Shown here: piece by piece, positions 18,519 to 54,381 of the stretch
Layout: each line of letters opens with the position of its first letter
Position numbering within the stretch: the stretch's first letter is position 1
Source of the DNA: Pseudomonadota bacterium
Lineage (GTDB): Bacteria > Pseudomonadota > Alphaproteobacteria > Rhizobiales > JAKPQE01
NCBI GenBank assembly: GCA_029572955.1
Contig: JAKPQE010000088.1
Span: 1-64,000, forward strand
Length of the DNA stretch: 64,000 nt
Direction: 5' to 3'
Program-made: the position numbers and the translations under genes
Notes under the pieces: model-generated
The model's input: only the letters and a program-made list of their open reading frames with translations
The model's database searches: none
What the model was told of the DNA's origin: nothing

Positions 18519-19910
18519 ATGCTGGGCTTTGCAAGCGCGCGCCGGACATCCGGCAACACCTATATGCCGGATCATAGTAATCATTCGCACGATACTGAAC
18601 CGCAGTTGGATCTCCGCCGTCTGGCCGACGCCCTGGAGACGCTGGCGGCAGGTCACCAGCCGTCGCTCGACGACGTGCCCGAGCCCGTCAGGGGTTCGCT
18701 GGCGCTGCTCGCCCGGCGCATGTCGGAGCGCGACCGCGCCGATCTCGCCCACGCCGTCGACTTCTCGATGCAGGCGAGCGAGACCATGGTCGCGGCGGCC
18801 CGGATCACCGGCGAAGTGCGCACCATCGGCCAGAAGACCGGCAGCATGTCGGCGGCGATCGAGGAGCTGAACGCCTCGATGAACCAGATCGCCGGCTTCG
18901 CGACGACCTCGTCGGAAGAGATGACCCGCGCCGCGACGCTGATGCGCGAGGGCGCGCATTCGGTCGCCTCGGCGACCGGATCGATCGAGACGATCTCCGG
19001 CTCGGTGAACGGCATGGCCGGCAAGGTCGATGCCCTCGAGGACGCCTCCGAGCAGATCGCCGAAATCCTCGGCACCATCGACGCCATCGCCAAGCAGACC
19101 AATCTCCTCGCCCTCAACGCCACCATCGAGGCGGCGCGGGCCGGCGAGGCCGGGCGCGGCTTTGCGGTCGTCGCCAGCGAGGTCAAGGCGCTCTCGGCCC
19201 AGACCAGCCGGGCGACCGAGGACATCAGCGAACGGATCGAGCGGCTGAAGGCCGACGTCGGCGAGCTGCTCTCCTCGATGATCGCGGCCAACGAAGCGGT
19301 TGCCGAAGGCCGCACCGTCACGGCCGCCGCCAACGAACAGATCGCCGCCGTCAACGACCTCGTCGCGGCCAATGCCGAGCGCCTGTCGGAAGTCTCCACC
19401 GTGGTCGCCGAGCAGGCCGCGGCGACCGACGAGCTGTCGCACGGCGTCGCCGAGATCGTGCGCGGCGTCGAGGAAGTCGCCGATCTCGCCGAGCTGACGA
19501 TCGGTGCCGTCGGCGCCACCGAGATGCTGGTCAACGAGCAGCTCAAGACCTTCGACAACCGCGAGATCAAGGACTTCGTGCTGTTCCGCGCCAAGTCCGA
19601 CCATGTCCTGTGGAAGAAGATCCTTGCCGAGATGATCGTCGGCATCAAATCGGTCGATGCCTCGGGCCTTTCCGATCACCACGGCTGCCGCCTCGGCAAG
19701 TGGTACGACGAGGTCAGGGATCCCTCGATCCGCAACCATCCGGCCTTTGCCAGGCTGGCCGGCCCGCACGCCGCGGTCCACACCCACGGCAAGGCGGCGG
19801 CGGCGCTCCACGCCCGCGCCGATCTCGCCGGCGCGACCGCCGAAATCAAGGAAATGGAAAAGGCCTCGATCGAGGTCGTGCACCTGCTCGACGAGCTGAT
19901 CGCCCGCTGA
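18519..19910 (+). CDS. Soluble methyl-accepting chemotaxis protein with CZB zinc domain
   Basis: 463 residues, no membrane helix. The MCP signalling domain (about residues 90-340) has the conserved tip [20 protein letters not shown] and [12 protein letters not shown]. The last 110 residues form a CZB chemoreceptor zinc-binding domain: [28 protein letters not shown] and HAAVHTHGK supply the usual His, Cys, His, His zinc ligands. CZB receptors sense zinc, oxidants or pH. The first 85 residues have no known sensor fold. Start 18519 has CGGGGGCACCG upstream; ATG 18564 (MPDHSNHSH) is possible. A second CZB receptor with two further domains lies at 38272-40248. Confidence 0.92.
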
Positions 19911-33230: not shown

Positions 33231-35372
33231 TCAGACGGCGCCGACCGTCTTCAGCCGGGTGCGCGGGTGCACCTCGCCCTGGCTCATGACAGTGGTCTGG
33301 GCACGGAAGCGCTCGACGATCGAGCGCACGAAGGGGCGGGCCGTGCCGCTCGTCAGGAGCACCGGGATTTCGCCCTGCCTGGCGGCGTCCTCGAAGCGGT
33401 CGCGCACGGCGATGATGAATTCCTGCAGCTTGGAGGGCGGCATGGCGAGCTGGCGCTCCTCGCCCTCGCCGGTGAGGCTTTCGAGGAACGCCTGCTCCCA
33501 TTTCGGGGTGAGGGTGATGAGCGGCAGGTAGCCGTCCGGCGACAGGTTCGCCGCGCAGATCTGGCGGGCGAGGCGGCCACGCACATGTTCCACGATCGCC
33601 GCCGGCGAGCGCGCGAAGCCGACCGCCTCGGCAATGCCCTCGAGGATCGTCGGCAGGTCGCGGATCGAGATGCGCTCGGCAAGCAGGCCCTGCAGCACGC
33701 GCTGGATGCCGGAGACCGAGATCTGCGAGGGCACGATGTCCTCGATGAGCTTCTGCACGTCCTTCGGCAGGTCCTTCAGCAGCTTCTGCACCTCGGCATA
33801 GGACAGGAGGTCGGCCATGTTGGCCTTGATGACCTCGGTGAGGTGGGTCGAGACGACGGTCGAGGGATCGACCACCGTATAGCCGTTGATCTCGGCCTCG
33901 TCGCGATAGGCCGCTTCCACCCAGGTGGCCGGCAGGCCGAAGGTCGGCTCGGTGGTGTGCAGGCCCGGCAGGCCGACCTGGCCGCCGTTCGGATCCATCA
34001 CCATGAAGAGGTTGGCGTGCACCGTGCCGCGCCCCGCCTCGACCTCCTTGACCTTGATGACGTAGGTGGTGCCGTCCATCTGCATGTTGTCGAGCAGGCG
34101 CACCGACGGCATGACGAAGCCGAGGTCGCCGGCGAGCTGGCGGCGCAGCGCCTTGATCTGGTCGGTGAGCCGGTCGCTGCCGTCCGGCGAATTGATCAGC
34201 GGCAGCAGCGAATAGCCGAGCTCGATCCTGAGGTCGTCCATCCGAAGGACCGAGGAGATCGGCTCCTCGACCGGCGCCGACTGCTCGGCCTGGACGGCCA
34301 TCGCCGTCTCCATCAGCTGCTGCGCCGTGGTCTCGCGCCGCTTCTTCTCGATCGTGAAGGCAAGGCCGCCGGCAAGGCCTGCGAGCGCGAGGAACGGGAT
34401 CATCGGCATGCCCGGCAGGACGGAGAGCACGGTCATGACGAAGGCCGACATGCCGAGCGCCTTCGGATAGCCGGAGAGCTGGGCGACGAGCGCCTTGTCG
34501 GCGGCGCCCGAGACGCCGGCCTTGGAAACGAGGAGGCCGGCGGCGGTCGACACGATCAGCGCCGGGATCTGCGAGACGAGGCCGTCGCCGACCGTCAGCA
34601 GCGTGTAGGAATGGCCGGCCTCGGCCAGCGTCAGCTCCTGCTGCACGACGCCGATGACGATGCCGCCGATGACGTTGATGAAGGTGATGAGCAGGCCGGC
34701 GATGGCGTCGCCGCGCACGAATTTCGAGGCACCGTCCATGGCGCCGAAGAAGGCCGATTCGTCCTCGAGCGCCTTGCGCCGCGAGCGCGCCTCGCCCTCG
34801 TCGATGAGGCCGGAGGAAAGGTCGGCGTCGATCGCCATCTGCTTGCCGGGCATGGCATCGAGGGTGAAGCGCGCCGCGACTTCCGCGATGCGGCCCGAAC
34901 CCTTGGTGATGACGACGAAATTGACGATGACGAGGATGCCGAAGACGATGATGCCGATGATGAAATTGCCGCGCATCACGAAGTTGCCGAAGGCCTCGAT
35001 GACGTGGCCGGCGGCGCTCGGTCCCTCGTGGCCATAGGCCAGGATCAGGCGGGTCGAGGCAAGGTTCAGCGCAAGGCGCAGCATCGTCGCGATGAGCAGC
35101 ACGGTTGGGAAGGCCGAGAACTCCAGCGGCGCATGGATGAACAGCGACGTCATCAGGATCAGCACGGAAAAGATGATCGAGACGGCGAGGAAGACGTCGA
35201 GCATCATCGCCGGCAGCGGCAGGATGAGCACGACGAGAATGGTCATGACGCCGAGGGCGAGGGCGATGTCGCCGCGCCGGAGCACGTCGATGATCGAGCC
35301 GATGGAGAGCATCGAGCGCGCGCTGCCGGCCCCTGCGCCCTGGCCAGCCGGTCCTGCGGTGACGTCGGTCAT
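33231..35372 (-). CDS. flhA: Flagellar biosynthesis protein FlhA (export gate)
   Basis: 713 residues. The N-terminal half has eight membrane helices from about residue 40 to 330 and the FHIPEP signature RFTLDAMPGKQMAIDADL. The C-terminal half is the cytoplasmic nonameric ring domain (for example TEVIKANMADLLSYAEVQKL). FlhA is the core of the flagellar type III export gate that uses the proton gradient. The frame is open 34 codons upstream; ATG 35372 (MTDVTAGPAG) begins the family-like sequence. It is the only flagellar structural gene in the window and stands without a visible operon partner. Confidence 0.95.
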   Translation of the reverse strand: MTDVTAGPAGQGAGAGSARSMLSIGSIIDVLRRGDIALALGVMTILVVLILPLPAMMLDVFLAVSIIFSVLILMTSLFIHAPLEFSAFPTVLLIATMLRLALNLASTRLILAYGHEGPSAAGHVIEAFGNFVMRGNFIIGIIVFGILVIVNFVVITKGSGRIAEVAARFTLDAMPGKQMAIDADLSSGLIDEGEARSRRKALEDESAFFGAMDGASKFVRGDAIAGLLITFINVIGGIVIGVVQQELTLAEAGHSYTLLTVGDGLVSQIPALIVSTAAGLLVSKAGVSGAADKALVAQLSGYPKALGMSAFVMTVLSVLPGMPMIPFLALAGLAGGLAFTIEKKRRETTAQQLMETAMAVQAEQSAPVEEPISSVLRMDDLRIELGYSLLPLINSPDGSDRLTDQIKALRRQLAGDLGFVMPSVRLLDNMQMDGTTYVIKVKEVEAGRGTVHANLFMVMDPNGGQVGLPGLHTTEPTFGLPATWVEAAYRDEAEINGYTVVDPSTVVSTHLTEVIKANMADLLSYAEVQKLLKDLPKDVQKLIEDIVPSQISVSGIQRVLQGLLAERISIRDLPTILEGIAEAVGFARSPAAIVEHVRGRLARQICAANLSPDGYLPLITLTPKWEQAFLESLTGEGEERQLAMPPSKLQEFIIAVRDRFEDAARQGEIPVLLTSGTARPFVRSIVERFRAQTTVMSQGEVHPRTRLKTVGAV

Positions 35373-35646
35373 GTCGCTCGCCTCGATCCTTCGGCCGCGT
35401 CCGGCCTCACGGGATGTCGCCTGTCGTCGTGTCCGGCTCGTTGTCGGCGGCCGGCGGGCGTTCGAGCCGGCCACGCAAACCGGCGCCGCCGCCGGACGAG
35501 AGGCGGACCCGCGCCACTAGGCAGAATTTGCCGGGCACATGGTTAGCGAATGGTTAACGCGGCCCCCGCCGCGCCCCTGCCGGCGCCGAAAACCGCCTTT
35601 TGTCTCCATGAGTTGGGAGAAACTGGCCAAACCGGGGGAGGCTTCC

Positions 35647-36376: not shown

Positions 36377-38190
36377 ATGGCCCCGCCGCTTCTCCATCTT
36401 CGCAACATTCGTCTCGACCATGGCGGCCGGCCGCTGCTCGATGGTGCCGAGCTGTTCGTCGCTTTAGGTGAGCGGCTCTGCCTCGTCGGCCGCAACGGCT
36501 CGGGCAAGTCGACGCTCCTGAAGATCGCCGCCGGCATCATCGAGGCCGACAAGGGCGAGGTCTTCGTCCATCCCGGCGCGACCGTGCGCTACCTGCCGCA
36601 GGAGCCGGACCTTTCCGGCTTTTCGACGACGCTCGCCTTCGTCGAGGCCGGGCTCGCCCCCGGCGACGACCCGCACCGCGCCCGCTACCTGCTCGAGCAC
36701 CTCGGCCTCACCGGCGAGGAGGATCCGGCCAACCTTTCCGGCGGCGAGGCGCGCCGCGCCGCGCTCGCCCGCGTGCTCGCCCCCGAGCCCGACATCCTCC
36801 TCCTCGACGAGCCGACCAACCATCTCGACCTGCCGGCGATCGAATGGCTCGAGGACGAGCTGAAGCGCGGCCGCTCGGCCCTCGTCCTCATCAGCCACGA
36901 CCGCCGCTTCCTCGAAAACCTGTCGCGCGCCGTCGTCTGGCTCGATCGCGGCATCACCCGCCGGCTCGACCGCGGCTTTGCCGCCTTCGAGGGCTGGCGC
37001 GACGACGTCCTCGCCCGCGAGGAGGAAGAGCGCCACAAGCTCGACCGCAAGATCGTCATGGAGGAGGACTGGCTGCGCTATGGCGTGACGGCGCGGCGCA
37101 AGCGCAACGAGCGCCGCCTGCGCCTGCTCAACGAGATGCGCCAGAGCCGCCGCAGCGAGCGCCGCGCCGAGGGCACGGTGAAGATGGCCGCTTCCGAGAG
37201 CGAAGCCTCCGGCAAGCTCGTCATCGAGGCCGTCGGCGTCATGAAGAGCTATGACGGCCGGCCGATCGTCGCCGGCTTCTCGACCCGCATCCAGCGCGGC
37301 GACCGCGTCGGCATCGTCGGCCCAACGGCGCCGGCAAGACGACGCTGATCGAGCTCCTGACCGGCCAGCGCCCGCCCGATGCCGGCACGGTCAAGCTCGG
37401 CGCCAGCGTCACCTCGGTGAGCCTCGACCAGCGCCGCGAAAGCCTCGATCCGGCCGCCACGGTCGCCGAGACGCTGACCGGCGGGCGCGGCGACACGGTG
37501 ATGCTGCCGGACGGGCCGAAACACGTCATGAGCTACATGAAGGACTTCCTGTTCGAGCCGGCGCAGGCGCGCCAGCCGGTCTCGGCGCTCTCGGGCGGCG
37601 AGCGCGGCCGCCTGATGCTCGCCCGGGCGCTGGCCAAGCCCGCCAACCTCATCGTCCTCGACGAGCCGACCAACGACCTCGACATGGAAACCCTCGGTCT
37701 TCTCGAGGAAATGCTCGCCGACTATCCGGGCACGGTGCTCGTCGTCAGCCACGACCGCGATTTTCTCGACCGCGTGGTGACGAGCGTCGTCGTCTCGGAA
37801 GGCGCCGGCCGCTGGGTCGAATATGCCGGCGGCTATTCGGACATGCTTGCCCAGCGCGGCGCCGACGTCGCCGCGAGGGCCGCCGCGACCAGGCAGCCGA
37901 AGGCGAAGCCGGCCGAGGAGCCCGCCGCCGAGCGGCCGCAGAAGGAACAGAAGCGCCGCCTGACGATGAAGGAGATGGAGGCGCTGAAGACGCTGCCCGG
38001 CCGCATCGACAAGCTCCATGCCGAGATCGCCCGGCTCGACGCGGTCTTGGCCGACGCCGATCTCTATGCCCGCGATCCGGCCCGCTTCGAGAAGGCGGCG
38101 AAGGCCCATGACAAGGCCGCGGCCGAACTTGGCCAGGCCGAGGAGGAGTGGCTGCGCATCGAGATCCTGCGCGAGGAACTGGGGCTGTAG
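36377..38190 (+). pseudogene. ABC-F ATPase (Uup-type), frameshifted in the second Walker A
   Basis: Two reading frames together code one 604-residue ABC-F protein. The first (36377-37348) has a complete first ABC domain: VGRNGSGKSTLLKI, LSGGEARRAALA, LLLDEPTNHLD, LVLISHDRRF. In the second domain the Walker A should read GPNGAGKTTL, but a run of C at 37321-37323 has three C where four are needed, so the frame breaks at GIVGP. The second frame (from about 37324, open to 38190) resumes exactly with NGAGKTTL and continues to ALSGGERGRLML and VLDEPTNDLDMETLG. The C-terminal coiled helix is Uup-like. Either a sequencing error or a recent single-base loss. ABC-F proteins act on ribosomes, not in transport. 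Confidence 0.85.
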
Positions 38191-38254: not shown

Positions 38255-38271
38255 TCTGCGTGGTCGCAGGC

Positions 38272-40248
38272 CTACTCGGCCGCGACGACCCGCTCGATAT
38301 TCGCCTTCACGGCCGGCTCGGCGAAGCGCACGCCACCGGCCTTGCCGTCGGACCACACGGTCGTGCCGCTGCAGCAGTTGTCGCCGCCGACGACGCGCAC
38401 CTGCTTGCCGATATCGGCCGGCGACAGGCCCTCGATGCGGGCGCCACCCTGCGAGATGTCCTGGATCCGCACCTCGCGCTGCTTGCCGTCGACTTCCACG
38501 GTGGCCTGCCGGCTGACCGCGGTGCGGCGGAACTGGCGCCGGTCGAGTTCGGCGAAGTCCTCGTTGAGGATGTTGGAGAGGTCGTCGAGGCCGGCCAGAA
38601 CCTCGTGGCTCGCGTCGGTCAGCTTGCGCAGCTCGTCGATCGCCGCGTCGGTGTTGCCGGCGGCATGGGCGGCAAGGCAGGCCTTCGCCGTCGCATGCAC
38701 CCGGCGGTGCGGTTCGGCGAGGTTCTTGTAGGGCTCCAGTTCCTTGATCTGGGGCAGGCTGAGGGAATCGTACCACTTGCCGAGGCGGCAGTTGTGGTGG
38801 TCGGGCACGGCTCCGGTCTCCCAGTTGTCGCGGCCCATCAGCGTGTCGACGACGCGCTTGCGGAACAGCACGTGGTCGATCTTGGCCATCTCGCAGAGCG
38901 CCCGGTGCGAATCCGGCCGGAACCAGGTCTTGGCATTGTCCGAGAAGCGCGTGTTGCTCTCGTGCAGCTTGGTCGACATCACCCCGAGCAGGTCCTCGTT
39001 CTCGCCCGCCGTCGCGGCGACCTGATCGATGTTGCGGGCGATCTCGGCGCTGGTGTCCTTCTGCTGGTGCAGGATGCTGGAAATGTCGACCATGCGGTCG
39101 GAGACGTTGCGCACCTGGGTGGCGACGAGGTCCATCGTCTCGGCGGCGGTGGTGATCGCCTTGTCGCCCTCGGCGACCGCCGCGTTGGAGCGCTGCATGG
39201 TGGTGGTGATGACGCTCATGCCGTCGCGCAGCGAGGCGATGCGTCGGGCGATGTCCTCGGTCGATTTCGAGGTCTGGTTGGCAAGGCCCTTGACCTCCGA
39301 GGCAACGACCGCGAAGCCCTTGCCCATCTCGCCGGCGCGCGCCGCCTCGATCGTCGCGTTGAGGGCGAGAAGGTTGGTCTGCTCGGCGATGCCCTCGATG
39401 ACGCTGAGGATCTGGCCGATCTGTTCCGAGGCGCTCGACAGCTCGTCGACGCTCGCCGCCGTCTCCTCGACCGCGTCGGTGATGTTGAGCATTGCCTCGC
39501 GCACCTGCATGACCGCGTTGCGGCCGGCCGTCACGGTGCCGTCGGTCGAACGCGCATCCTCGGCCGCGCCCTCGCTGTTGCGCGAGATTTCCTCGACCGA
39601 GGCGACGAGTTCGGCCGCCGCCGAGGAAATCGTCTGGGCGTTCATCGAGACGGTGCGGGTGTTGCGGGCGAGATGGGCGAGCTCCAGCGCCACCTGGTTC
39701 ACGTCGGCGACCGAGCCGGCGAGGTTCTTCAGGTTGCGGAGGTCGCCCTCGCGGGTGACTTCGCGCTCCTTCTCGGCGAGAACGCCGCTCTCGTAGACCG
39801 AGTTCGAGAGGATCATGTCCATAAAGGTGCGCATGATCAGCGCCTGCAGCGCCTCGGCGATCTTGCCCGGGCGCATGCGGTATTTCGCGGTGACATGCGG
39901 GATGAGACGCACCAGCATCCAGGCATAGGCCGCCATGTACCAGCTCGACGACAGTTCGATGCGGGCGTGGGTCTTGCCGATCGAGACCGCGCGGGCCTCG
40001 TAATCGTCCGGCAGCCGGTCGCGGAACAGTACGTCCCAGTGCTCCATCTGCGCCGACTTCAGGTGTTCGACATGGCCGGCACCCTGGAATTTGCCGCCGA
40101 GTTCGGGGATGTCCTGGAGCAGGCCGTAGAAGTCGGACAGATGCTTCGGCATATGCCGGCTGATGTCCCGCCAGAGGGCTTCCGGCTTCTCGTTCATGAC
40201 GCCGGCCGACCGCATGAAGGCCATGATCTGGCTGATATTCTGATCCAT
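38272..40248 (-). CDS. Globin-coupled chemoreceptor with CZB and PilZ domains
   Basis: 658 residues, no membrane helix. Four domains in order: a globin-coupled sensor (about residues 10-155; [10 protein letters not shown] and [20 protein letters not shown] with the proximal haem His at 94); an MCP signalling domain (about 200-440; [19 protein letters not shown] at the tip, then [12 protein letters not shown]); a CZB zinc domain (about 455-560; His459, Cys487 in [10 protein letters not shown], His514, His518); and a PilZ domain (about 570-655; RRQFRR and DISQGGARI match the RxxxR and [D/N]xSxxG c-di-GMP motifs). It should sense oxygen through haem, zinc or oxidants through CZB, and cyclic di-GMP through PilZ, and steer swimming. 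Confidence 0.93.
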
Positions 40249-40488
40249 TGGCTGACTGCCCCGTTGGATTTTTCTCAGGTCAAGGACCGCATGCAGGACG
40301 CGGCGGCGCCGACATGACGTCTTGTCTTGTTCGGAAGGCTAGGTCGCCAATACTAACGAGTGGTTATTGACCGCTTGACGTCGGCTAGGAATTACACCGG
40401 CTGAACTGTTTTCCCGGCCGTATTTCGCAAGGAAATAGTTGCGTTTGAAATCAAGTAAATGTGGCGAGGCAAAGGTTTTCGTCCCGCC

Positions 40489-45513: not shown

Positions 45514-46494
45514 TTATGCGATCGACTGGTAGTAGATGTTCTGCGGGTGGTTCGCCTCGGCAAAGAAGAACCAGCGCTCGACGAGCAGTCCCGCCGCCTG
45601 GATGGCGACGGCGAGGAACAGCGGCTCGGGCCGCTCGATGGCGATCGCCACGATCGTCAGGGCGAAGGGCACGAGGAAGGCCGTGACGAGGAAGCCCCAG
45701 CGCGCCGACTTCAGGAACAGCGGCGACTTGCCGTGGAAGAACTCGCGGGTGTTGAACGAGCCGCCCATGGCGCCCTGCGTCTTCTGCGCGATCTGGCGGT
45801 GGTGCACGCCGATGGCGGTCTGCAGCGTCGACTTCGGCCGGAGCCGCAGATTGCGGATCAGCGAGGCGATCCGCGTGCCGGTGGCCAGAACGAGCAGCAG
45901 AGCCGACAGGCCGCCGAAGAAATAGGTGAGGTCCGGCTGGACGATCGAGGCGAGCACGGCCGTGAACAGGAAACCCGAGGCGCCGCCGATCAGGATGTAG
46001 TTGATGACCGTCAGCGGCGTGTGCCACTCCTGCAGGAACTTCAGGCTCGCATAGATCATCGCCGTGCACACGAAGAGCACGAAGGCGAGCACCGTGCCGA
46101 TCGCCACGATGACGAGCGACAGCGTCACCGGCGGCGCGCCGATGCGCTCGATGATCACCGGGTTCCACTCGAAGAAATGGACGAGCAGATAGAGGAACAC
46201 CGCGCCCATGAAGGCCGGCAGGGCGATGACCTCGCGCGACAGCCACGAGGTGCGCCACTTGGTGGCCGTGCGCCAGGCCCGCTCCGGCCGGCCGAGATGG
46301 AAGAACGAGGCAAAGAGCCCGCCGGTCAGGAAGGCGAGCGCGACGAACGCCCCGGCGGCGTTGAAATAGGACTGCGGCGGCATCGGCAGGAGATCGAAAT
46401 AGGCGTAGATCTCCGCCGTCGCGAGCGCGAGGAAGGTGCCCTGGCCGAAGCCGAGGAGCACGGTGAGGAAGATGACGGAAAACGCGGGATGCAT
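45514..46494 (-). CDS. soeC: Membrane anchor of sulfite-oxidising molybdoenzyme (DmsC family, SoeC-like)
   Basis: 326 residues with about eight membrane helices (for example VIFLTVLLGFGQGTFLALAT, and VIIERIGAPPVTLSLVIVAI). The family is the DmsC-type quinone-reactive anchor. Its size, its place after a 243-residue iron-sulfur protein and a 978-residue catalytic subunit without a Tat signal, and the order A-B-C match SoeABC, the cytoplasmic sulfite dehydrogenase of Allochromatium and marine Roseobacters. A GGAGGCGAG lies before ATG 46494. It would pass electrons from SoeB to the quinone pool. It follows soeB by 19 bp. The alternative, a DMSO- or polysulfide-reductase anchor, cannot be fully excluded. 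Confidence 0.8.
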   Translation of the reverse strand: MHPAFSVIFLTVLLGFGQGTFLALATAEIYAYFDLLPMPPQSYFNAAGAFVALAFLTGGLFASFFHLGRPERAWRTATKWRTSWLSREVIALPAFMGAVFLYLLVHFFEWNPVIIERIGAPPVTLSLVIVAIGTVLAFVLFVCTAMIYASLKFLQEWHTPLTVINYILIGGASGFLFTAVLASIVQPDLTYFFGGLSALLLVLATGTRIASLIRNLRLRPKSTLQTAIGVHHRQIAQKTQGAMGGSFNTREFFHGKSPLFLKSARWGFLVTAFLVPFALTIVAIAIERPEPLFLAVAIQAAGLLVERWFFFAEANHPQNIYYQSIA

Positions 46495-46513
46495 GGGTTT
46501 CTCGCCTCCAGAC

Positions 46514-47245
46514 TCACCAGGGCATGACATCGTCGAGCGTCGGCTCGTTGATGTCCGGCTTGGGCATGTACTCTTCCTTCTTCAGCGGATTGTCGGCGCG
46601 CACCAGCTCGTCCTCGTGCAGGTGCAGGCGCATCTTGCGCCGCGGAAGATAATGATTGGCGGGCTTGGTGCCCCATTCCGGCATCAGCTCGAAGCCGCCC
46701 TGCTCGCGAATGGCGCGCGAGACCTCCGATTCGGGATCGTGGATGTCGCCGAAGAGCCGCGCGCTTGCCGGGCAGGAGAGCACGCAGGCCGGCCGGCGCT
46801 CACGCTCGGGCAGGTTCATGTCGTAGATGCGGTCGACGCAGAGGGTGCACTTCTTCATCACCTTCTGGTTCTCGTCGAGCTCGCGCGCGCCGTAGGGACA
46901 GGCCCAGGAGCAGTACTTGCAGCCGATGCACTTGTCGTAGTCGACGAGCACGATGCCGTCCTCGGCCCGCTTGTAGGAGGCCCCGGTCGGGCAGACCGGC
47001 ACGCAGGGCGGCTCCTCGCAATGCAGGCACGACTTCGGGAAGTGCACCGTCTCGGTATTCGGATAGACGCCGACCTCGAAGGTCTGCACGCGGTTGAAGA
47101 ACGTGCCGGTCGGGTCCTTGCCGTAGGCGTTGAAATCGCTCAGCGGACCGGAGAGACCGGAGGTGTTCCACTCCTTGCACGAGGTCACGCAGGCGTGGCA
47201 GCCGACGCACACATTGAGATCGATGACGAGCGCGAGCTGGGTCAT
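46514..47245 (-). CDS. soeB: Iron-sulfur subunit of sulfite-oxidising molybdoenzyme (SoeB-like)
   Basis: 243 residues with sixteen Cys in four groups: 13-16-19-23 (CVGCHACVTSC), 73-76-81-85 (CLHCEEPPCVPVC), 106-109-112-116 (CIGCKYCSWACPYGA) and 133-136-154-158. That is four [4Fe-4S] clusters, the DmsB/PsrB plan that wires a molybdoenzyme to a membrane anchor. No signal peptide. It overlaps the catalytic gene by 4 bp (ATGA, 47242-47245). Function in sulfite oxidation is inferred from the neighbours; the electron-transfer role is firm. Confidence 0.85.
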   Translation of the reverse strand: MTQLALVIDLNVCVGCHACVTSCKEWNTSGLSGPLSDFNAYGKDPTGTFFNRVQTFEVGVYPNTETVHFPKSCLHCEEPPCVPVCPTGASYKRAEDGIVLVDYDKCIGCKYCSWACPYGARELDENQKVMKKCTLCVDRIYDMNLPERERRPACVLSCPASARLFGDIHDPESEVSRAIREQGGFELMPEWGTKPANHYLPRRKMRLHLHEDELVRADNPLKKEEYMPKPDINEPTLDDVMPW

Positions 47246-50178
47246 GACCGCTCTCCCGTGTGGCTCATGTCGAATTCCGAGCTGCCGCCGAAGAGGGCCT
47301 GCCAGAGCTTGGGCCGCTTGCGCACGCCCGGCGGCGTCGTCATCGGCTTGAACTGCGGCGAGGTCTGCTCCGGCTCGGCCGCATCGGCCTTGTAGATCCG
47401 CACCCGGACGTCGAACCAGGCGGCCTGGCCGGTCACCGGGTCGGAGTTCGAGCAGCGCGTGCCGGTCACCGGCTCGGGCGGCAGTTCCTCGGAGATGAGG
47501 TGGTTGAGCAGGAAGCCCTTCTGGCTCTCGTTGGCGTCGGGCGAGAGGTTCCAGGCGCCGGACGCCTTGCCGATGGCGTTCCAGGTCCACACCGTGCCCG
47601 GTTCGACCGCCTCGGAGAAGCGGCACATGCAGCGCACCTTGCCCCACTGCGACTCGACCCAGATCCAGTCGCCGTCGTCGATGCCGAGGCCCTTGGCGAG
47701 CTTCGGATTGACGTAGAGATAGTTGTGGGCGTGGATCTGGCGCAGCCAGGCGTTCTGCGAATCCCAGGAATGGTACATCGCCATCGGCCGCTGGGTGATC
47801 GCGTTCAGCGGATACTTGGCTGTGTCGGTGCGCTGCGATTCCAGCGGCTCGTAGTAGAAGGGCAGGGGATCGAAGAAGGTCTCGACCCGCTTGCGGAGGC
47901 GCTGCGGCGGCAGCCGCGAGATGCCCTTGCCCTGCGCCGCGAGACGGAAGCTCTGCAGCACCTCGGAATAGAGGTGGATGAGGATCGGCTCGGCATAGCG
48001 CGTCAGGCGGTGGCGCTGCGCCCAGTCGAGATAGCCGCGGTTCCAGTTGCGCATGTACTGGTAGGAGCGCGGCAGCTCGTAGTGATAGTGGCAGTCGTTG
48101 GCCGCGTACATTTCCCACTGGCGCGGATTGGGCGCGCCGCGCAGGGTCTTCTCGCCGCCATTGCCGCGCCAGCCCGACAGGAAGCCGATGCCGGAGCCCG
48201 GCTCGGTCTCGTAATTGATGATGAAGTCGGGATAGTCGCGGAATTTGCGCCGCCCGTCGGCATGGACGAAAGCCGGCAGCTTCAGCCGCGAACCGATCTC
48301 GATCAGCACCTCCTGGAACGGCTTGCAGTCGCCGGTCGGCGGCAGCACCGGGACGCGCACGGAATCGACCGGGCCGTCGAACTCGGAAATCGGCCGGTCG
48401 AGCAGGCTCATCACGTCGTGCCGCTCGAGATAGGTCGTGTCCGGCAGCACGAGGTCGGCGAAGGCCACGGTCTCCGACATGAAGGCGTCGGCGACGACGA
48501 TGAACGGGATCTTGTAGTCGCCGTTCTCGTCGCGGTCGGCCATCATGTCGCGCACGTTGACCGTGTTCATCGACGAGTTCCAGGCCATGTTGGCCATGAA
48601 GATCAGCAGCGTGTCGATCTTGTAGGGATCGCCGCGCCAGGCATTGGTGATCGCGTTGTGCATCAGGCCGTGCACCGCGAGCGGATATTCCCACGAGAAC
48701 GCCTTGTCGAGGCGCACCGGCTCGCCGTCGTCGTCGACGAAGAGGTCGTCCGGGTCGGCCGGCCAGCCGAGCACCATGCCGTCGAGCGGCGTGTTCGGCT
48801 TGACCGCGAGCGGGGTCGAGGGCGTCTTCGGGCAGGGCGGGATCGGCCGCGGGAACGGCGCCTTGTGGCGGAAGCCGCCGGGCCGGTCGATCGTGCCGAG
48901 CACGGTCATCAGGATCGACAGGGCGCGGATCGTGTGGAAGCCGTTGGAATGGGCGGCAAGGCCGCGCATCGCATGGAAGGAGACCGGGTTGCCGGTCATC
49001 GTCTGGTGCTCGTGGCCCCAGGCGTCGGTCCACGCAATCGGCAGCTCGATGCGCTGGTCGCGGGCGACGACGCCCATCTCGTGGGCGAGGCGCCGGATCG
49101 TCTCGACCGGAATGCCGGTGATCCCGGCGGCCCATTCGGGCGTGTATTCGGCAACGCGCTCCTTGAGGAGCTGGAACGCCGGCTTGACCGGCGTGCCGTC
49201 CTTCAGCGCGAACTCGCCCATCAGGAACGGATCGACGCCTTCGGCATGCGAGAGCACCGGCCGGTCGGCCTCGCGGTCCCACCACAGCTTGTTCTGCGGG
49301 TCGAAGCAGCCTTCCTCGACCGGCACCTCGGTGCGCACGAACATGCCGTATTCGGACGACTTCTCGTCCATGTTCACCAGCTCGGCCGAGTTCGTGTACT
49401 TGACGAGGAAGTCGCGGTCGTAGAGGCCGAGCGCCAGGATCTCGTGGATGAGGGCGAGGAAGAGGGCGCCGTCGGTGCCCGGCTTGATCGGCACCCACTC
49501 GTCGGCGATCGCCGCATAGCCGGTGCGCACCGGATTGATGGCGATGAAGCGGCCGCCGTTGCGCTTGAACTGGCTGAGCGCGATCTTCATCGGGTTGGAG
49601 TGATGGTCCTCGGCGGTGCCGATCATCACGAAGAGCTTGGCGCGGTCGAGGTCCGGGCCGCCGAACTCCCAGAACGAGCCGCCGATCGTGTAGACCATGC
49701 CGGCCGCCATGTTGACCGAGCAGAAGCCGCCATGGGCGGCGTAGTTCGGCGTGCCGAACTGCTTGGCAAAGAGGCCGGTCAGCGCCTGCATCTGGTCGCG
49801 GCCGGTATAGAGCGCGAACTGCTTGGGGTCGGTCGCGCGGATGTTGCCGAGCCGCTCCTCGAGGATCTGGAAGGTCTCCTCCCAGCTTATCGCCTCGAAC
49901 TTGCCTTCGCCGCGCACGGCGCCCGCCTTGCGCTTCAGGGGCTTCGTCAGGCGCGCCGGCGAATACTGCTTCATGATGCCCGAGGCACCCTTGGCGCAGA
50001 TCACGCCCTTGTTCAGCGGGTGGTCCGGATTGCCCTCGATGTAGCGGACCTTGCCGTCCTTGAGGGTGACGCGGATGCCGCAGCGGCAGGCGCACATGTA
50101 GCAGGTGGTGTCGAGCTTGCGCTCGCCGGTACGGTCTTCAGAGGGGATCGGCTCGTCTGCCCGATAGGTCGGTGCCAC
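47242..50178 (-). CDS. soeA: Molybdopterin oxidoreductase catalytic subunit, SoeA-like sulfite dehydrogenase
   Basis: 978 residues, Mo-bis-MGD enzyme of the DMSO reductase family. The N-terminal [4Fe-4S] site is C26-x2-C29-x3-C33 (TTCYMCACRCGIR) and C61 (ICAKGASG). A likely Mo ligand is Cys153 in HGGFCSVNMAAG. There is no twin-arginine signal, so it works in the cytoplasm, unlike DMSO, polysulfide or tetrathionate reductases. The lack of a His after the Mo Cys argues against formate dehydrogenase. Length, absence of a Tat signal and the soeA-B-C order fit the sulfite-oxidising SoeA. A GTG start at 50178 is preceded by GGGAGGAACAGAC; the long open extension upstream has no family match. It is downstream of the hydrogenase operon. 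Confidence 0.82.
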   Translation of the reverse strand: MAPTYRADEPIPSEDRTGERKLDTTCYMCACRCGIRVTLKDGKVRYIEGNPDHPLNKGVICAKGASGIMKQYSPARLTKPLKRKAGAVRGEGKFEAISWEETFQILEERLGNIRATDPKQFALYTGRDQMQALTGLFAKQFGTPNYAAHGGFCSVNMAAGMVYTIGGSFWEFGGPDLDRAKLFVMIGTAEDHHSNPMKIALSQFKRNGGRFIAINPVRTGYAAIADEWVPIKPGTDGALFLALIHEILALGLYDRDFLVKYTNSAELVNMDEKSSEYGMFVRTEVPVEEGCFDPQNKLWWDREADRPVLSHAEGVDPFLMGEFALKDGTPVKPAFQLLKERVAEYTPEWAAGITGIPVETIRRLAHEMGVVARDQRIELPIAWTDAWGHEHQTMTGNPVSFHAMRGLAAHSNGFHTIRALSILMTVLGTIDRPGGFRHKAPFPRPIPPCPKTPSTPLAVKPNTPLDGMVLGWPADPDDLFVDDDGEPVRLDKAFSWEYPLAVHGLMHNAITNAWRGDPYKIDTLLIFMANMAWNSSMNTVNVRDMMADRDENGDYKIPFIVVADAFMSETVAFADLVLPDTTYLERHDVMSLLDRPISEFDGPVDSVRVPVLPPTGDCKPFQEVLIEIGSRLKLPAFVHADGRRKFRDYPDFIINYETEPGSGIGFLSGWRGNGGEKTLRGAPNPRQWEMYAANDCHYHYELPRSYQYMRNWNRGYLDWAQRHRLTRYAEPILIHLYSEVLQSFRLAAQGKGISRLPPQRLRKRVETFFDPLPFYYEPLESQRTDTAKYPLNAITQRPMAMYHSWDSQNAWLRQIHAHNYLYVNPKLAKGLGIDDGDWIWVESQWGKVRCMCRFSEAVEPGTVWTWNAIGKASGAWNLSPDANESQKGFLLNHLISEELPPEPVTGTRCSNSDPVTGQAAWFDVRVRIYKADAAEPEQTSPQFKPMTTPPGVRKRPKLWQALFGGSSEFDMSHTGERS

Positions 50179-50580
50179 GTCTGTTCCTCCCGCGCCACGC
50201 GCGCTCGTTCGTCGCCGCAAAGGCGGCAAAACCGTCAAGGGGAACATATCGGACGCTGTCGCCGGCCGTCCGGCGTCGCGCCACAGGTTGCGTGTCGCGA
50301 ACCGCCACCGGTACCGGCACCTGATGCCGACTTCCCCCCGCCGCAATTCTTCGGTCGGTCTTTTGCGCCGGCCGTTTTCACCTCGCCGGGCGGTCGTGCC
50401 TGCCGCGCCGGACCTGCGAATTAATATCCGTATATACTAATATTCCAAACGATTGAAGTGCGTCATTGGCCGCGTCCGGTCGTTCTCGAGAAGGAGGGTG
50501 AACGGCGCGCCAGGCCCTGCCGTGGCAAGACCTTGGCGCCCGTCCGCGCCGTCCTTCGGGCAGCTTTCGGTGACGATGCT
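50179..50580. other. Intergenic region between hydrogenase operon and soeA
   Basis: 402 bp without a gene. The half near soeA is GC-rich with no clear site. An AT-rich pocket at about 50419-50456 holds a striking dyad (listed separately). It is the most likely promoter or operator region for soeABC. Confidence 0.55.
50423..50444. promoter_or_regulatory. AT-rich dyad upstream of soeABC, possible operator
   Basis: AATAT-CC-GTATATAC-TA-ATATT: outer arms AATAT/ATATT and a perfect central 8-bp palindrome GTATATAC, 22 bp in all, about 245 bp before the soeA start. Nothing around it is AT-rich. Dyads of this kind suit ArsR- or Rrf2-type repressors, but no binding protein is identified. The heptamer ATATTAG in it also occurs upstream of the hydrogenase operon (57080-57086). 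Confidence 0.45.
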
Positions 50581-50889: not shown

Positions 50890-52638
50890 CTATTCCACCG
50901 CGATCTGCATCAGCTCCTCGCCGTCGGGGTCGACGACGTGGACCGCGCAGGCGATGCACGGATCGAAGCTGTGGATGGTGCGCTGGATCTCCAGCGGCTG
51001 CTTCGGATCGGCGAGGGCGTGACGGTCCATCAGCGCCGCCTCGTAGGCGCCCGGCTGTCCGGTCGCGTCGCGCGGACCGGCGTTCCAGGTCGAGGGCACG
51101 ACGGCCTGATAGTTGTCGATGAGCCCGTCCTTGATGACGATGTAGTGGGCGAGGGCACCACGCGGCGCCTCCATGAAGCCGACGCCGCGGGCCTCCTTCG
51201 GCCAGGTCGAGGGATCCCAGAGCTCGGCATTGTGCACGGCGACATCGCCGTCCCTGATGTTGCCGATGAGGGTGTCGAGCCAGCCGGCCATCTGGTCGAC
51301 GACGATCTTGGTCTCGAGCGTGCGCGCCGCGGTGCGGCCGAGCGTCGAGAACAGCGCCTCGATCGGCAGGTCGAGCTTGCCGAGCGCCATCGTCGCGAGT
51401 TCCCGGGTCTGCTCGTGGCCCTTGGCATAGAGCATCAGCACGCGGGCGAGCGGGCCGACTTCCATCGCCTTGCCGCGCCAGCGCGGCGCCTTCAGCCAGG
51501 AATAGTCCTTCTCGACGTCGAGCTGCTCGTAGGGCGGCTTCGGCCCGGTGAAGGCGAAGCTGGTCTCGCCGTCATAGGGGTGCAGGCCCTTCTCCTTGCC
51601 GACCGAATAGTCGTACCAGGAATGCGAGACGAACTCCTGCAGCTGCTCGGGGTCGTTCGGATCGACGGGGAGGATCTCGTTGAGGTTCCGCCCGATGATC
51701 GCGCCCGACGGGATCAGCCAGGACGAGGGATCGTCCATGCCCTTGGCCGGGAAGTCGCCGAAGGTCAGGAAGTTGCCGAGGCCTTCGCCGCGCGCGAACC
51801 AGTCCTTGTAGAACGAGGCGACGGCCAGCGTGTCCGGCACGTAGACCTCGTCGACGAAGGCCTGCATCTTGGCGATCGTGTTGCGGATCTCGCCGAGCCC
51901 GACGATGTTGGTCGCGGTCGCCGCCACCGCGCCGCTCATCGAGGCCGGGCTCGAGCTGATCGGCGACGGCGCGCCGCCGACGAGGAAGTTCGGGTGCGGG
52001 TTCTTGCCGCCGAAGATCGTGTGGATCTTGACGACGTCGCGCTGCCAGGCGAGCGCTTCCAGATAGTGCGCGACGGCGATGAGGTTGACCTCGGCCGGCA
52101 GTTTGTATTCCGGGTGGCCCCAGAAGCCGCCGGCGAAGATGCCGAGCTGGCCGGCCTCGACGAACTTCTTCACCTTGGCCTGCACGTCGGCGAAGTAGCC
52201 CGGGCTCGACTTCGGGAACTTCGAGATCGACTGGGCGATCTCGGAGGCGGCCTTCGGATCGGCCGACAGCGCCGAGACGACGTCGACCCAGTCGAGGGCA
52301 TGCAGATGGTAGAAGTGCATGACGTGATCGTGCACGTACTGGGCCGCGATCATCAGATTGCGGATCAGCTGGGCGTTCGCCGGGATCGGATAGTTGAGCG
52401 CGTTTTCCACCGCCCTGACCGAGGCGATGCCGTGCACGAGGGTGCACACGCCGCAGATGCGCTGGGCGAAGGCCCAGGCGTCGCGCGGGTCGCGCCCTTT
52501 GAGGATCAGCTCGATACCGCGCACCATGGTGCCGGACGAATAGGCGCTGGTGATCGCGCCGGCCTCGCCGGTTTCGGCCTCGATGCGCAGATGGCCCTCG
52601 ATCCGCGTGATGGGGTCGACAACGACACGATTGTTCAT
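50890..52638 (-). CDS. hynL: [NiFe] hydrogenase large subunit
   Basis: 582 residues carrying the Ni-Fe active site. The N-terminal pair is C62 and C65 in QRICGVCT; the C-terminal pair is C561 and C564 in DPCIACAVH. The protein continues 15 residues past His567 (VVDPDGEELMQ and so on): this tail is cut by the maturation protease after nickel is inserted, so the protein is a genuine Ni-Fe type and not a nickel-free homolog. The order hynS-isp1-isp2-hynL matches group 1e (Isp-type) uptake hydrogenases, as in Thiocapsa and Allochromatium, linked to sulfur metabolism and the quinone pool. Here an extra gene precedes hynL. Confidence 0.95.
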   Translation of the reverse strand: MNNRVVVDPITRIEGHLRIEAETGEAGAITSAYSSGTMVRGIELILKGRDPRDAWAFAQRICGVCTLVHGIASVRAVENALNYPIPANAQLIRNLMIAAQYVHDHVMHFYHLHALDWVDVVSALSADPKAASEIAQSISKFPKSSPGYFADVQAKVKKFVEAGQLGIFAGGFWGHPEYKLPAEVNLIAVAHYLEALAWQRDVVKIHTIFGGKNPHPNFLVGGAPSPISSSPASMSGAVAATATNIVGLGEIRNTIAKMQAFVDEVYVPDTLAVASFYKDWFARGEGLGNFLTFGDFPAKGMDDPSSWLIPSGAIIGRNLNEILPVDPNDPEQLQEFVSHSWYDYSVGKEKGLHPYDGETSFAFTGPKPPYEQLDVEKDYSWLKAPRWRGKAMEVGPLARVLMLYAKGHEQTRELATMALGKLDLPIEALFSTLGRTAARTLETKIVVDQMAGWLDTLIGNIRDGDVAVHNAELWDPSTWPKEARGVGFMEAPRGALAHYIVIKDGLIDNYQAVVPSTWNAGPRDATGQPGAYEAALMDRHALADPKQPLEIQRTIHSFDPCIACAVHVVDPDGEELMQIAVE

Positions 52639-52651
52639 CTTGGGTCTCCCT

Positions 52652-53110
52652 TCACGCCTTGAGGAATTCGCCGAGGAGGCGGTACTGCGCTTCGTTCTCG
52701 CGCACCGCGGTCCCGTCCTCGTCGATGGCGACGCTGGTCCGCGCCATGCGCGCGTTCACCGCCGCCTGCCAGGCCGGATTGCCCGACTTGACGTGTCCCG
52801 GCGGCGCGACGCAGGCAGCGGCGGCGCGGGCGACGAAATAGGCCGCCTGCTCCTTCCAGTCCCCCTCCGCTCCGCAGCGCGTATGCCAGTCGATGCTGGC
52901 CCGCCGGGCCCCCTGGAATGCTGCCGCCAGGGCTTCGTCCGAACCGCCCTTGGCGGCCACCTCGACGGCGCCCGCTACCCGTTCGTCTTCGATCAGCGGC
53001 AGCACCGCGCGCACGAACAGGGCTCCCGCCTTGCGCTGGTCGGCGAGCGCCAGACCATCGAGTGCCTGGCGGAAGGCGGCTTCGTTCTTGATCTCGGCCA
53101 TCGTTCTCAT
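52652..53110 (-). CDS. Unknown protein within the hydrogenase operon
   Basis: 152 residues, soluble and helical (FRQALDGLALADQRKAGALF, then VRAVLPLIEDERVAGAVEVA). It has two Cys (HTRCGAEGDW and AACVAPP) and no motif I recognise. The ATG at 53110 overlaps the isp2 stop (ATGA), and hynL begins 13 bp after its stop, so it is locked into the operon and co-translated. In the known Isp-type operons isp2 is followed directly by hynL, so this gene is an addition. It may help HynL folding or targeting or may be a small chaperone. Not assigned. Confidence 0.7.
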   Translation of the reverse strand: MRTMAEIKNEAAFRQALDGLALADQRKAGALFVRAVLPLIEDERVAGAVEVAAKGGSDEALAAAFQGARRASIDWHTRCGAEGDWKEQAAYFVARAAAACVAPPGHVKSGNPAWQAAVNARMARTSVAIDEDGTAVRENEAQYRLLGEFLKA

Positions 53111-54381
53111 CCTTCGGCCTTGCCGGTCTCGACCAGATGCTCGGCGAGGAGCTCGGTGAGGCCGATAACGGGAATGTCCATGTTGTTCTCTTCGAGGCCT
53201 TCTTCGAGCTGGATGCGGCAGTTGGCGCAGGCGGTGATCAGCTTGTCGGGCTTGACCGCCTCGAGCTGCCGCTTCTTGGCGTTGAAGGCGGTGAGCTTCA
53301 GCTCGCCCGCTTCCTCGATCGCCGAGACGCCGCCGCCGGCGCCGCAGCACCAGTTCATCTTGCCGGCCTCGGGCATGTCGACGAAGTCCTTGACGACCAT
53401 CTTGACGAGCCGGCGCGGCTGCTCGAGGACGCCGCCGCGGCGCACCAGCTGGCACGGGTCGTGGAAGGTCATGCGCTCTTCCTCGAAGCCCTCGGTCTTC
53501 AGCTTGCCGGCGGCCCTGAGCTCGTCGAGCACCTCGAGAATGTGGCGCGCCTTGAACTTGTACGGCCGGCCGATGAGGTTCGGGCCGTCCCAGCGCAGCG
53601 CCGTATAGGCATGGCCGCATTCCGGGCTGATCACCGTCTTGACGCCGAGCTTCTCGGCGGCCGCGACGATGCGCGAGACGAGTTCGCGGGCAATGTCGGA
53701 CGAACCGATCTGGATGCCCGAATTGGTCGCCTCGAAGGCTTGGCTGGAGAGCGTCCAGGAAACGCCCGCCTCGCTGAAGATGCGGGCGATCGCCTCGAGA
53801 TATTCCGGATAGTTCATGATCTCCATCGACGACATCAGCACCAGGTAGTCGGCGCCGTCCTTGTCGACGGGGATCTGGAGCCCGGTGTCGTTCTCGACAT
53901 GGCCGATCTGGGCGGCGACCGCCTTCCAGGTCACGCCCATCGGGCTGCCGATCTTGACGGCGCGGGTCGAGGCGCCCTTGAGGCCGTCCGGCGAATAGCC
54001 GGCCGCCACCATGCCTTCACGCTGCTTGCGGATCATGCCGGCGATGTCGTTGCCGACCGGGCAGACCATCGAGCAGCGGCCGCACAGCGAGCAGGCGTTG
54101 TAGGTCAGCTCCTGCCATTCGGCGAGCAGTTCCTCGGTTACCTTCGGCGCGAGGCCGACGAGCAAGGCGAGCTTGCCGAAGAGCGTATATTCGCTCCACC
54201 AGACGCGGCGCAGCGGCTCGAGCTTGTGGATCGGCGTGTAGCGCGGGTCGCCCGTCTCGTTGAAGAACAGGCAGGCATGGGCGCACAGCCCGCAATGGAC
54301 GCAGCTCGACAGATAGGCGGAGACCGCTCCGTCGATCTGCTCCTTGAAGGCGTTGATCGCGATTTTCGCACGGTCGGTCAT
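53107..54381 (-). CDS. isp2: Isp2: HdrD-like iron-sulfur protein of Isp-type hydrogenase
   Basis: 424 residues. Two [4Fe-4S] motifs (C27-C30-C33-C37 in CVHCGLCAHAC, and C97-C100-C103-C107 in CSLCGRCSMVC) are followed by two CCG-type cysteine domains (HDPCQLVRRGG, NWCCGAGGG, CANCRIQLEEG), the layout of heterodisulfide reductase HdrD. In Isp-type hydrogenases Isp2 receives electrons from the membrane cytochrome Isp1 in the cytoplasm. The substrate of such Hdr-like parts is not settled; a disulfide or sulfur compound is often proposed. It overlaps isp1 by 4 bp on one side and the unknown gene by 4 bp on the other. Confidence 0.9.
   Translation of the reverse strand: MTDRAKIAINAFKEQIDGAVSAYLSSCVHCGLCAHACLFFNETGDPRYTPIHKLEPLRRVWWSEYTLFGKLALLVGLAPKVTEELLAEWQELTYNACSLCGRCSMVCPVGNDIAGMIRKQREGMVAAGYSPDGLKGASTRAVKIGSPMGVTWKAVAAQIGHVENDTGLQIPVDKDGADYLVLMSSMEIMNYPEYLEAIARIFSEAGVSWTLSSQAFEATNSGIQIGSSDIARELVSRIVAAAEKLGVKTVISPECGHAYTALRWDGPNLIGRPYKFKARHILEVLDELRAAGKLKTEGFEEERMTFHDPCQLVRRGGVLEQPRRLVKMVVKDFVDMPEAGKMNWCCGAGGGVSAIEEAGELKLTAFNAKKRQLEAVKPDKLITACANCRIQLEEGLEENNMDIPVIGLTELLAEHLVETGKAEG

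Follow-up and report, generated by a model that had tools for sequence, protein, structure and literature searches.

A gene encoding a 658-residue chemoreceptor is located on the reverse strand of contig JAKPQE010000088.1 from a Pseudomonadota bacterium (order Rhizobiales, assembly GCA_029572955.1), within the 64,000-nucleotide stretch analyzed here and herein referred to as the window. Protoglobin, MCP, CZB, and PilZ domains were found in this protein, in that order (Table 1). All four exceed the Pfam curated cut-offs, and the best stretch of the MCP signal domain covers residues 268-412. No transmembrane segment was evident in a 19-residue Kyte-Doolittle scan of the protein (highest mean, 1.17), and no PAS domain was matched in the Pfam search. 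Thus, the initial annotation was right in placing globin, MCP, CZB, and PilZ on one soluble receptor. The residues that it named, including His94, His459, Cys487, His514, and His518 as well as RRQFRR (570-575) and DISQGG (597-602), all lie where it had put them. Its reading of RRQFRR needs one refinement: R574 is variable, and the conserved RxxxR pair is formed by R571 and R575. A long open reading frame (38260-40317) overlaps the gene on the forward strand. Codon-usage gene calling favours the reverse-strand receptor over this frame, and homology settles the choice. An artefact of chance or of overlapping frames was ruled out by the Pfam domains, the gene calling, and the homologues.

Table 1. 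Coordinates of the receptor gene, its domains, and other genes in the window.
Feature	Position	Strand	Evidence and remarks
Four-domain soluble chemoreceptor gene	38272..40248	-	ATG start, 658 aa; Pfam, codon-usage gene calling
Protoglobin domain, residues 26-154	39787..40173	-	Pfam PF11563, E 2.4e-23; haem pocket with Tyr41 (distal) and His94 (proximal)
MCP signalling coiled-coil hairpin, approx. residues 166-412	39013..39753	-	Pfam PF00015, E 3.8e-40
CZB domain, residues 459-524	38677..38874	-	Pfam PF13682, E 6.4e-13; His459, Cys487, His514, His518
PilZ domain, residues 569-646	38311..38544	-	Pfam PF07238, E 9.6e-9; R571xxxR575, D597xS599xxG602
FlhA (flagellar export)	33231-35474		
Second soluble MCP-CZB receptor	18519-19910	+	463 aa, without globin or PilZ
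ABC-F type ATPase gene	36377-38190	+	Two ABC domains and ABC_tran_CTD; split into two frames
Molybdopterin oxidoreductase with DmsC-like membrane anchor	45514-50346	-	
NiFe hydrogenase large subunit, Fe-S/CCG protein	50890-54381	-	

An AlphaFold2 model built from 39 aligned window and locus proteins had a mean pLDDT of 83.8 and a pTM of 0.50. The folds of the individual domains are credible; their relative placement in the model is not trusted, because the pTM is only 0.50.

The N-terminal part of the receptor is predicted by sequence and model to be a haem-binding globin of the globin-coupled-sensor type. All 34 globin-bearing homologues in the alignment of relatives retain Tyr41, His94, Q67, H70, G91, and W103 without exception. 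His94 aligns with His123 of HemAT, and Tyr41 with the region of HemAT Tyr70. Modelled residues 2-153 superimpose on the globins of AfGcHK (Z 18.9, rmsd 2.0, 150 residues aligned) and HemAT (Z 17.1, rmsd 2.5, 146 aligned). Two Cohaesibacter paralogues (L064 and L069) have a globin-like N-terminus from which the haem His and the distal Tyr are both missing; these proteins are therefore probably haemless. The PilZ-bearing relatives without haem globin carry a different, helical N-terminus, which is a domain of 130-160 residues in L007, L054, L062, L065, and L073; no Pfam match for it was found in the three relatives checked. For the modelled domain of L007, Foldseek gave no significant match, and the structure that it matches best is 3zta, a stressosome entry (Z 10.1, rmsd 3.5, 119 aligned). 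Possibly, this is a haemless RsbR-like globin fold, although the Z score falls short of what can be trusted for helical proteins.

The columns of the MCP hairpin tip are invariant among relatives. The modelled coiled coil resembles MCP structures and is co-linear with Tsr, residues 216-436 falling onto 300-520 (221 residues aligned). In the Tsr register, four of the five methylation positions are Glu or Gln in the receptor (E213, E220, Q409, and E418), and the ungapped alignment with Tsr would assign it to the 36-heptad class of MCPs. The four CZB ligands, forming a 3His/1Cys pattern, are likewise invariant in the alignment. A PDB sequence search with the receptor gave neither a CZB nor a PilZ match, and CZB was absent among the fold matches listed for the whole 658-residue query. 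Identification of CZB thus rests on Pfam, and that of PilZ on Pfam and Foldseek.

The C-terminal domain is a predicted c-di-GMP receptor domain with intact binding-site residues. Both the RxxxR motif (R571/R575) and the D/NxSxxG motif (D597/S599/G602) are present. Across 28 PilZ-bearing proteins, R571, R575, G602, G614, W632, and G639 are invariant (28/28), with a conservation of 0.45 for the mean PilZ column. The second motif is complete in all 22 PilZ-bearing proteins outside Hyphomonadaceae, while in six Hyphomonadaceae members, Ponticaulis and others (L056, L057, L058, L060, L071, and L074), its Ser is replaced by Gly or Asn and RxxxR is kept. In the model, the strands of the PilZ beta-barrel lie within residues 576-642. 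The C-terminus was matched by Foldseek to c-di-GMP-bound PlzA (E 5.5e-4), MapZ (8.9e-4), and VCA0042 (1.3e-3). The receptor PilZ also contains a C625-C626 pair, and a Cys-Cys or Cys-x-Cys loop was found in L031, L032, L033, L062, L054, and L007; this loop is possibly redox- or metal-related.

A scan of the genome contigs found 44 related loci. Of 52 aligned proteins, Pfam at an E-value of 0.01 assigned protoglobin to 37, CZB to 49, and PilZ to 16, and the alignment reveals a PilZ-like tail in further members. The globin-MCP-CZB-PilZ arrangement recurs, which the initial annotation had not noted: a full-length match from globin to PilZ was found in 18 of a sample of 397 genomes of the order, representing 8 family codes (at least eight families) and 10 genus codes. 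The four-domain receptor also occurs in Hyphomonadaceae. Pinisolibacter aquiterrae B13 (L032) is one culturable, non-pathogenic relative that carries the gene. In the phylum sample, such a match was found in only 2 of 398 genomes, which indicates that the architecture is lineage-restricted. A one-off fusion or an assembly chimera was ruled out by the recurrence in eight families.

In the tree of the core, globin and PilZ occur together in 23 proteins, and at least 5 changes in globin presence and at least 10 in PilZ presence are needed. Distances between PilZ domains are correlated with those between cores (Mantel r 0.70 for 22 thinned rows; p 0.0005, the lowest attainable with 2000 permutations), and the PilZ of a NIT-HAMP-MCP-PilZ receptor from the same genome is a distant outsider to the PilZ domains of the family. 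Because PilZ diverges with the core and the other MCP-PilZ protein falls outside, one old MCP-CZB-PilZ fusion with subsequent repeated loss of PilZ is the history favoured by these sequences. Independent gains of PilZ are not favoured, the PilZ domains being closer to one another than to that of the other MCP-PilZ receptor and co-varying with the core. In several Stappia relatives, the sequence stops just past what is left of the beginning of PilZ, for example LERRR; no PilZ pseudogenes were found downstream of the PilZ-less relatives. The repeated losses in close relatives suggest that PilZ is dispensable in many hosts.

Partial counterparts of the receptor are known. Globin-coupled MCPs, such as HemAT of Bacillus subtilis and Atu1027 of Agrobacterium tumefaciens, are likewise soluble and combine an N-terminal protoglobin having a proximal His and a distal Tyr with an MCP output; in Atu1027, His100 is required for aerotaxis (PMC10851874). 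Unlike the receptor, they have no reported CZB or PilZ. Aer and Tlp1 of Azospirillum brasilense also join an MCP to a C-terminal PilZ, through which aerotaxis is modulated; with Aer, aerotaxis relies on this domain (PMC6406031). However, both are membrane-anchored with no CZB reported, and Aer has a FAD-PAS domain instead of globin; neither the N-terminal FAD-binding PAS nor the membrane anchor of the Aer family was found in the receptor. Chemoreceptors of the TlpD/McpA type are soluble MCPs with the same C-terminal 3His/1Cys CZB but have no PilZ, and no globin has been described for TlpD or McpA. In the TlpD structure, the CZB site is coupled to the kinase interface (PMC12871147). In Salmonella, McpA acts through its CZB to attract cells to sites rich in O2, and according to a 2026 preprint, CZB domains themselves mediate O2-directed attraction via zinc bioavailability (PMC13370339). 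Globin-MCP-CZB and MCP-CZB-PilZ proteins of Hyphomicrobiales are further counterparts. Their core is homologous to that of the receptor and their CZB is the same; each also shares one of the two remaining modules with it, globin or PilZ, but is without PilZ or without the haem globin.

No account of the four-way combination was found in the literature searched, which lies mostly outside subscription journals. To this extent, the earlier view of the combination as unstudied stands. Its novelty is smaller than that view implied, since an effect of c-di-GMP on aerotaxis is already known for Tlp1 and Aer (PMC6406031, PMC13401364) and a 2021 tabulation of ligand-binding domains in CZB chemoreceptors already includes globin (PMC8262984). 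The receptor thus seems to be conserved, lineage-restricted, and undescribed as a whole, with pairwise precedents for each addition.

Taken together with these precedents, the domains make it rather probable that the protein is a HemAT-type cytoplasmic aerotaxis receptor with a zinc/redox input through CZB and a c-di-GMP reset through PilZ. O2 bound to the globin haem (proximal His94, distal Tyr41) would change the hairpin and hence the activity of CheA, the 3His/1Cys site would supply the zinc/redox input, and c-di-GMP on PilZ would reset the sensitivity of the receptor, so that the oxygen response would vary between the motile and the sessile state. Ligand binding, the direction of each effect, and cross-talk between the inputs are predicted here from sequence, structural models, and analogy. 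Globin, CZB, and PilZ should cluster at one end, because both termini of the MCP hairpin lie away from the kinase-binding tip. A broader reading, offered tentatively and as somewhat less probable than its negation, is that direct O2 binding, zinc/redox state, and c-di-GMP meet at one hairpin end of this single soluble receptor as a three-input gate. The gate would be retained in a lineage in which PilZ and the N-terminal sensor are swapped or lost so as to change when cells follow oxygen.

The role of PilZ is the part of this scheme most readily read otherwise. On an oxygen/zinc receptor, it could be a domain for structure, dimerisation, or partner docking (CheR/CheB-like recruitment) instead of a c-di-GMP sensor, as would suit its place among the least conserved and often lost domains and the missing Ser in Hyphomonadaceae. 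This is unlikely given the invariance of R571, R575, and G602 against the far lower PilZ average and the motif kept complete in every PilZ-bearing row outside Hyphomonadaceae. Doubt about the globin carries still less weight: that it senses NO, CO, or redox rather than O2, or binds no haem, leaving CZB as the main input, is improbable. The swapping of globin for other N-termini in related MCP-CZB proteins, the Cohaesibacter paralogues described above, and the binding of CO and NO by globin-coupled sensors (PMC13401364) are all consistent with it, but the proximal His, distal Tyr, and four further residues do not vary in any globin-bearing member.

The output was considered as well. MCP-like arrays may have alternative outputs, and the receptor might drive biofilm formation or second-messenger control and not a swimming bias. 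This is very improbable in view of the chemotaxis genes of the host and the flagellar export gene that the window also carries. The host genome, a draft that is 98.7% complete in 182 contigs, encodes one CheW and a 900-residue frame that is presumably CheA and has two CheW-like stretches, as well as CheR, 10 GGDEF domains, and 7 EAL domains. Thus, every partner needed by the aerotaxis model with its c-di-GMP reset is encoded. Four PilZ matches in three frames, three CZB proteins, and five protoglobin matches were found in this genome. Two of the protoglobin matches are simpler globin-MCPs, so the principal oxygen receptor may be a protein other than the four-domain one, and oxygen sensing in the host is likely redundant.

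Should all three ligands bind, the receptor would be a compact natural system in which one chemoreceptor combines O2 and redox/zinc with internal c-di-GMP, and the relatives missing a single module could serve directly for comparison. The receptor is relevant, too, to the proposal of zinc-mediated oxygen taxis by CZB (PMC13370339), because here CZB is paired with a predicted direct oxygen sensor; oxygen may accordingly be read twice, directly and via zinc.

Other combinations of the same modules occur in this genome. The window contains the second soluble MCP-CZB receptor, and two NIT-HAMP membrane receptors are also encoded (L127, 800-3148, and L075, 1797-4250). The C-terminal module is PilZ in one of these and CZB in the other, with the same sensor in both. 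No conserved operon partner was found: in the short flanks examined, the window neighbours do not lie beside any homologue. The neighbouring ABC-F gene is split by what looks like the loss of a single base close to position 37320, in its second Walker A region; this is either a sequencing error or a real disruption. Close to the receptor, the molybdopterin oxidoreductase and hydrogenase genes make up a block for redox chemistry, either anaerobic or sulfur/hydrogen-based.
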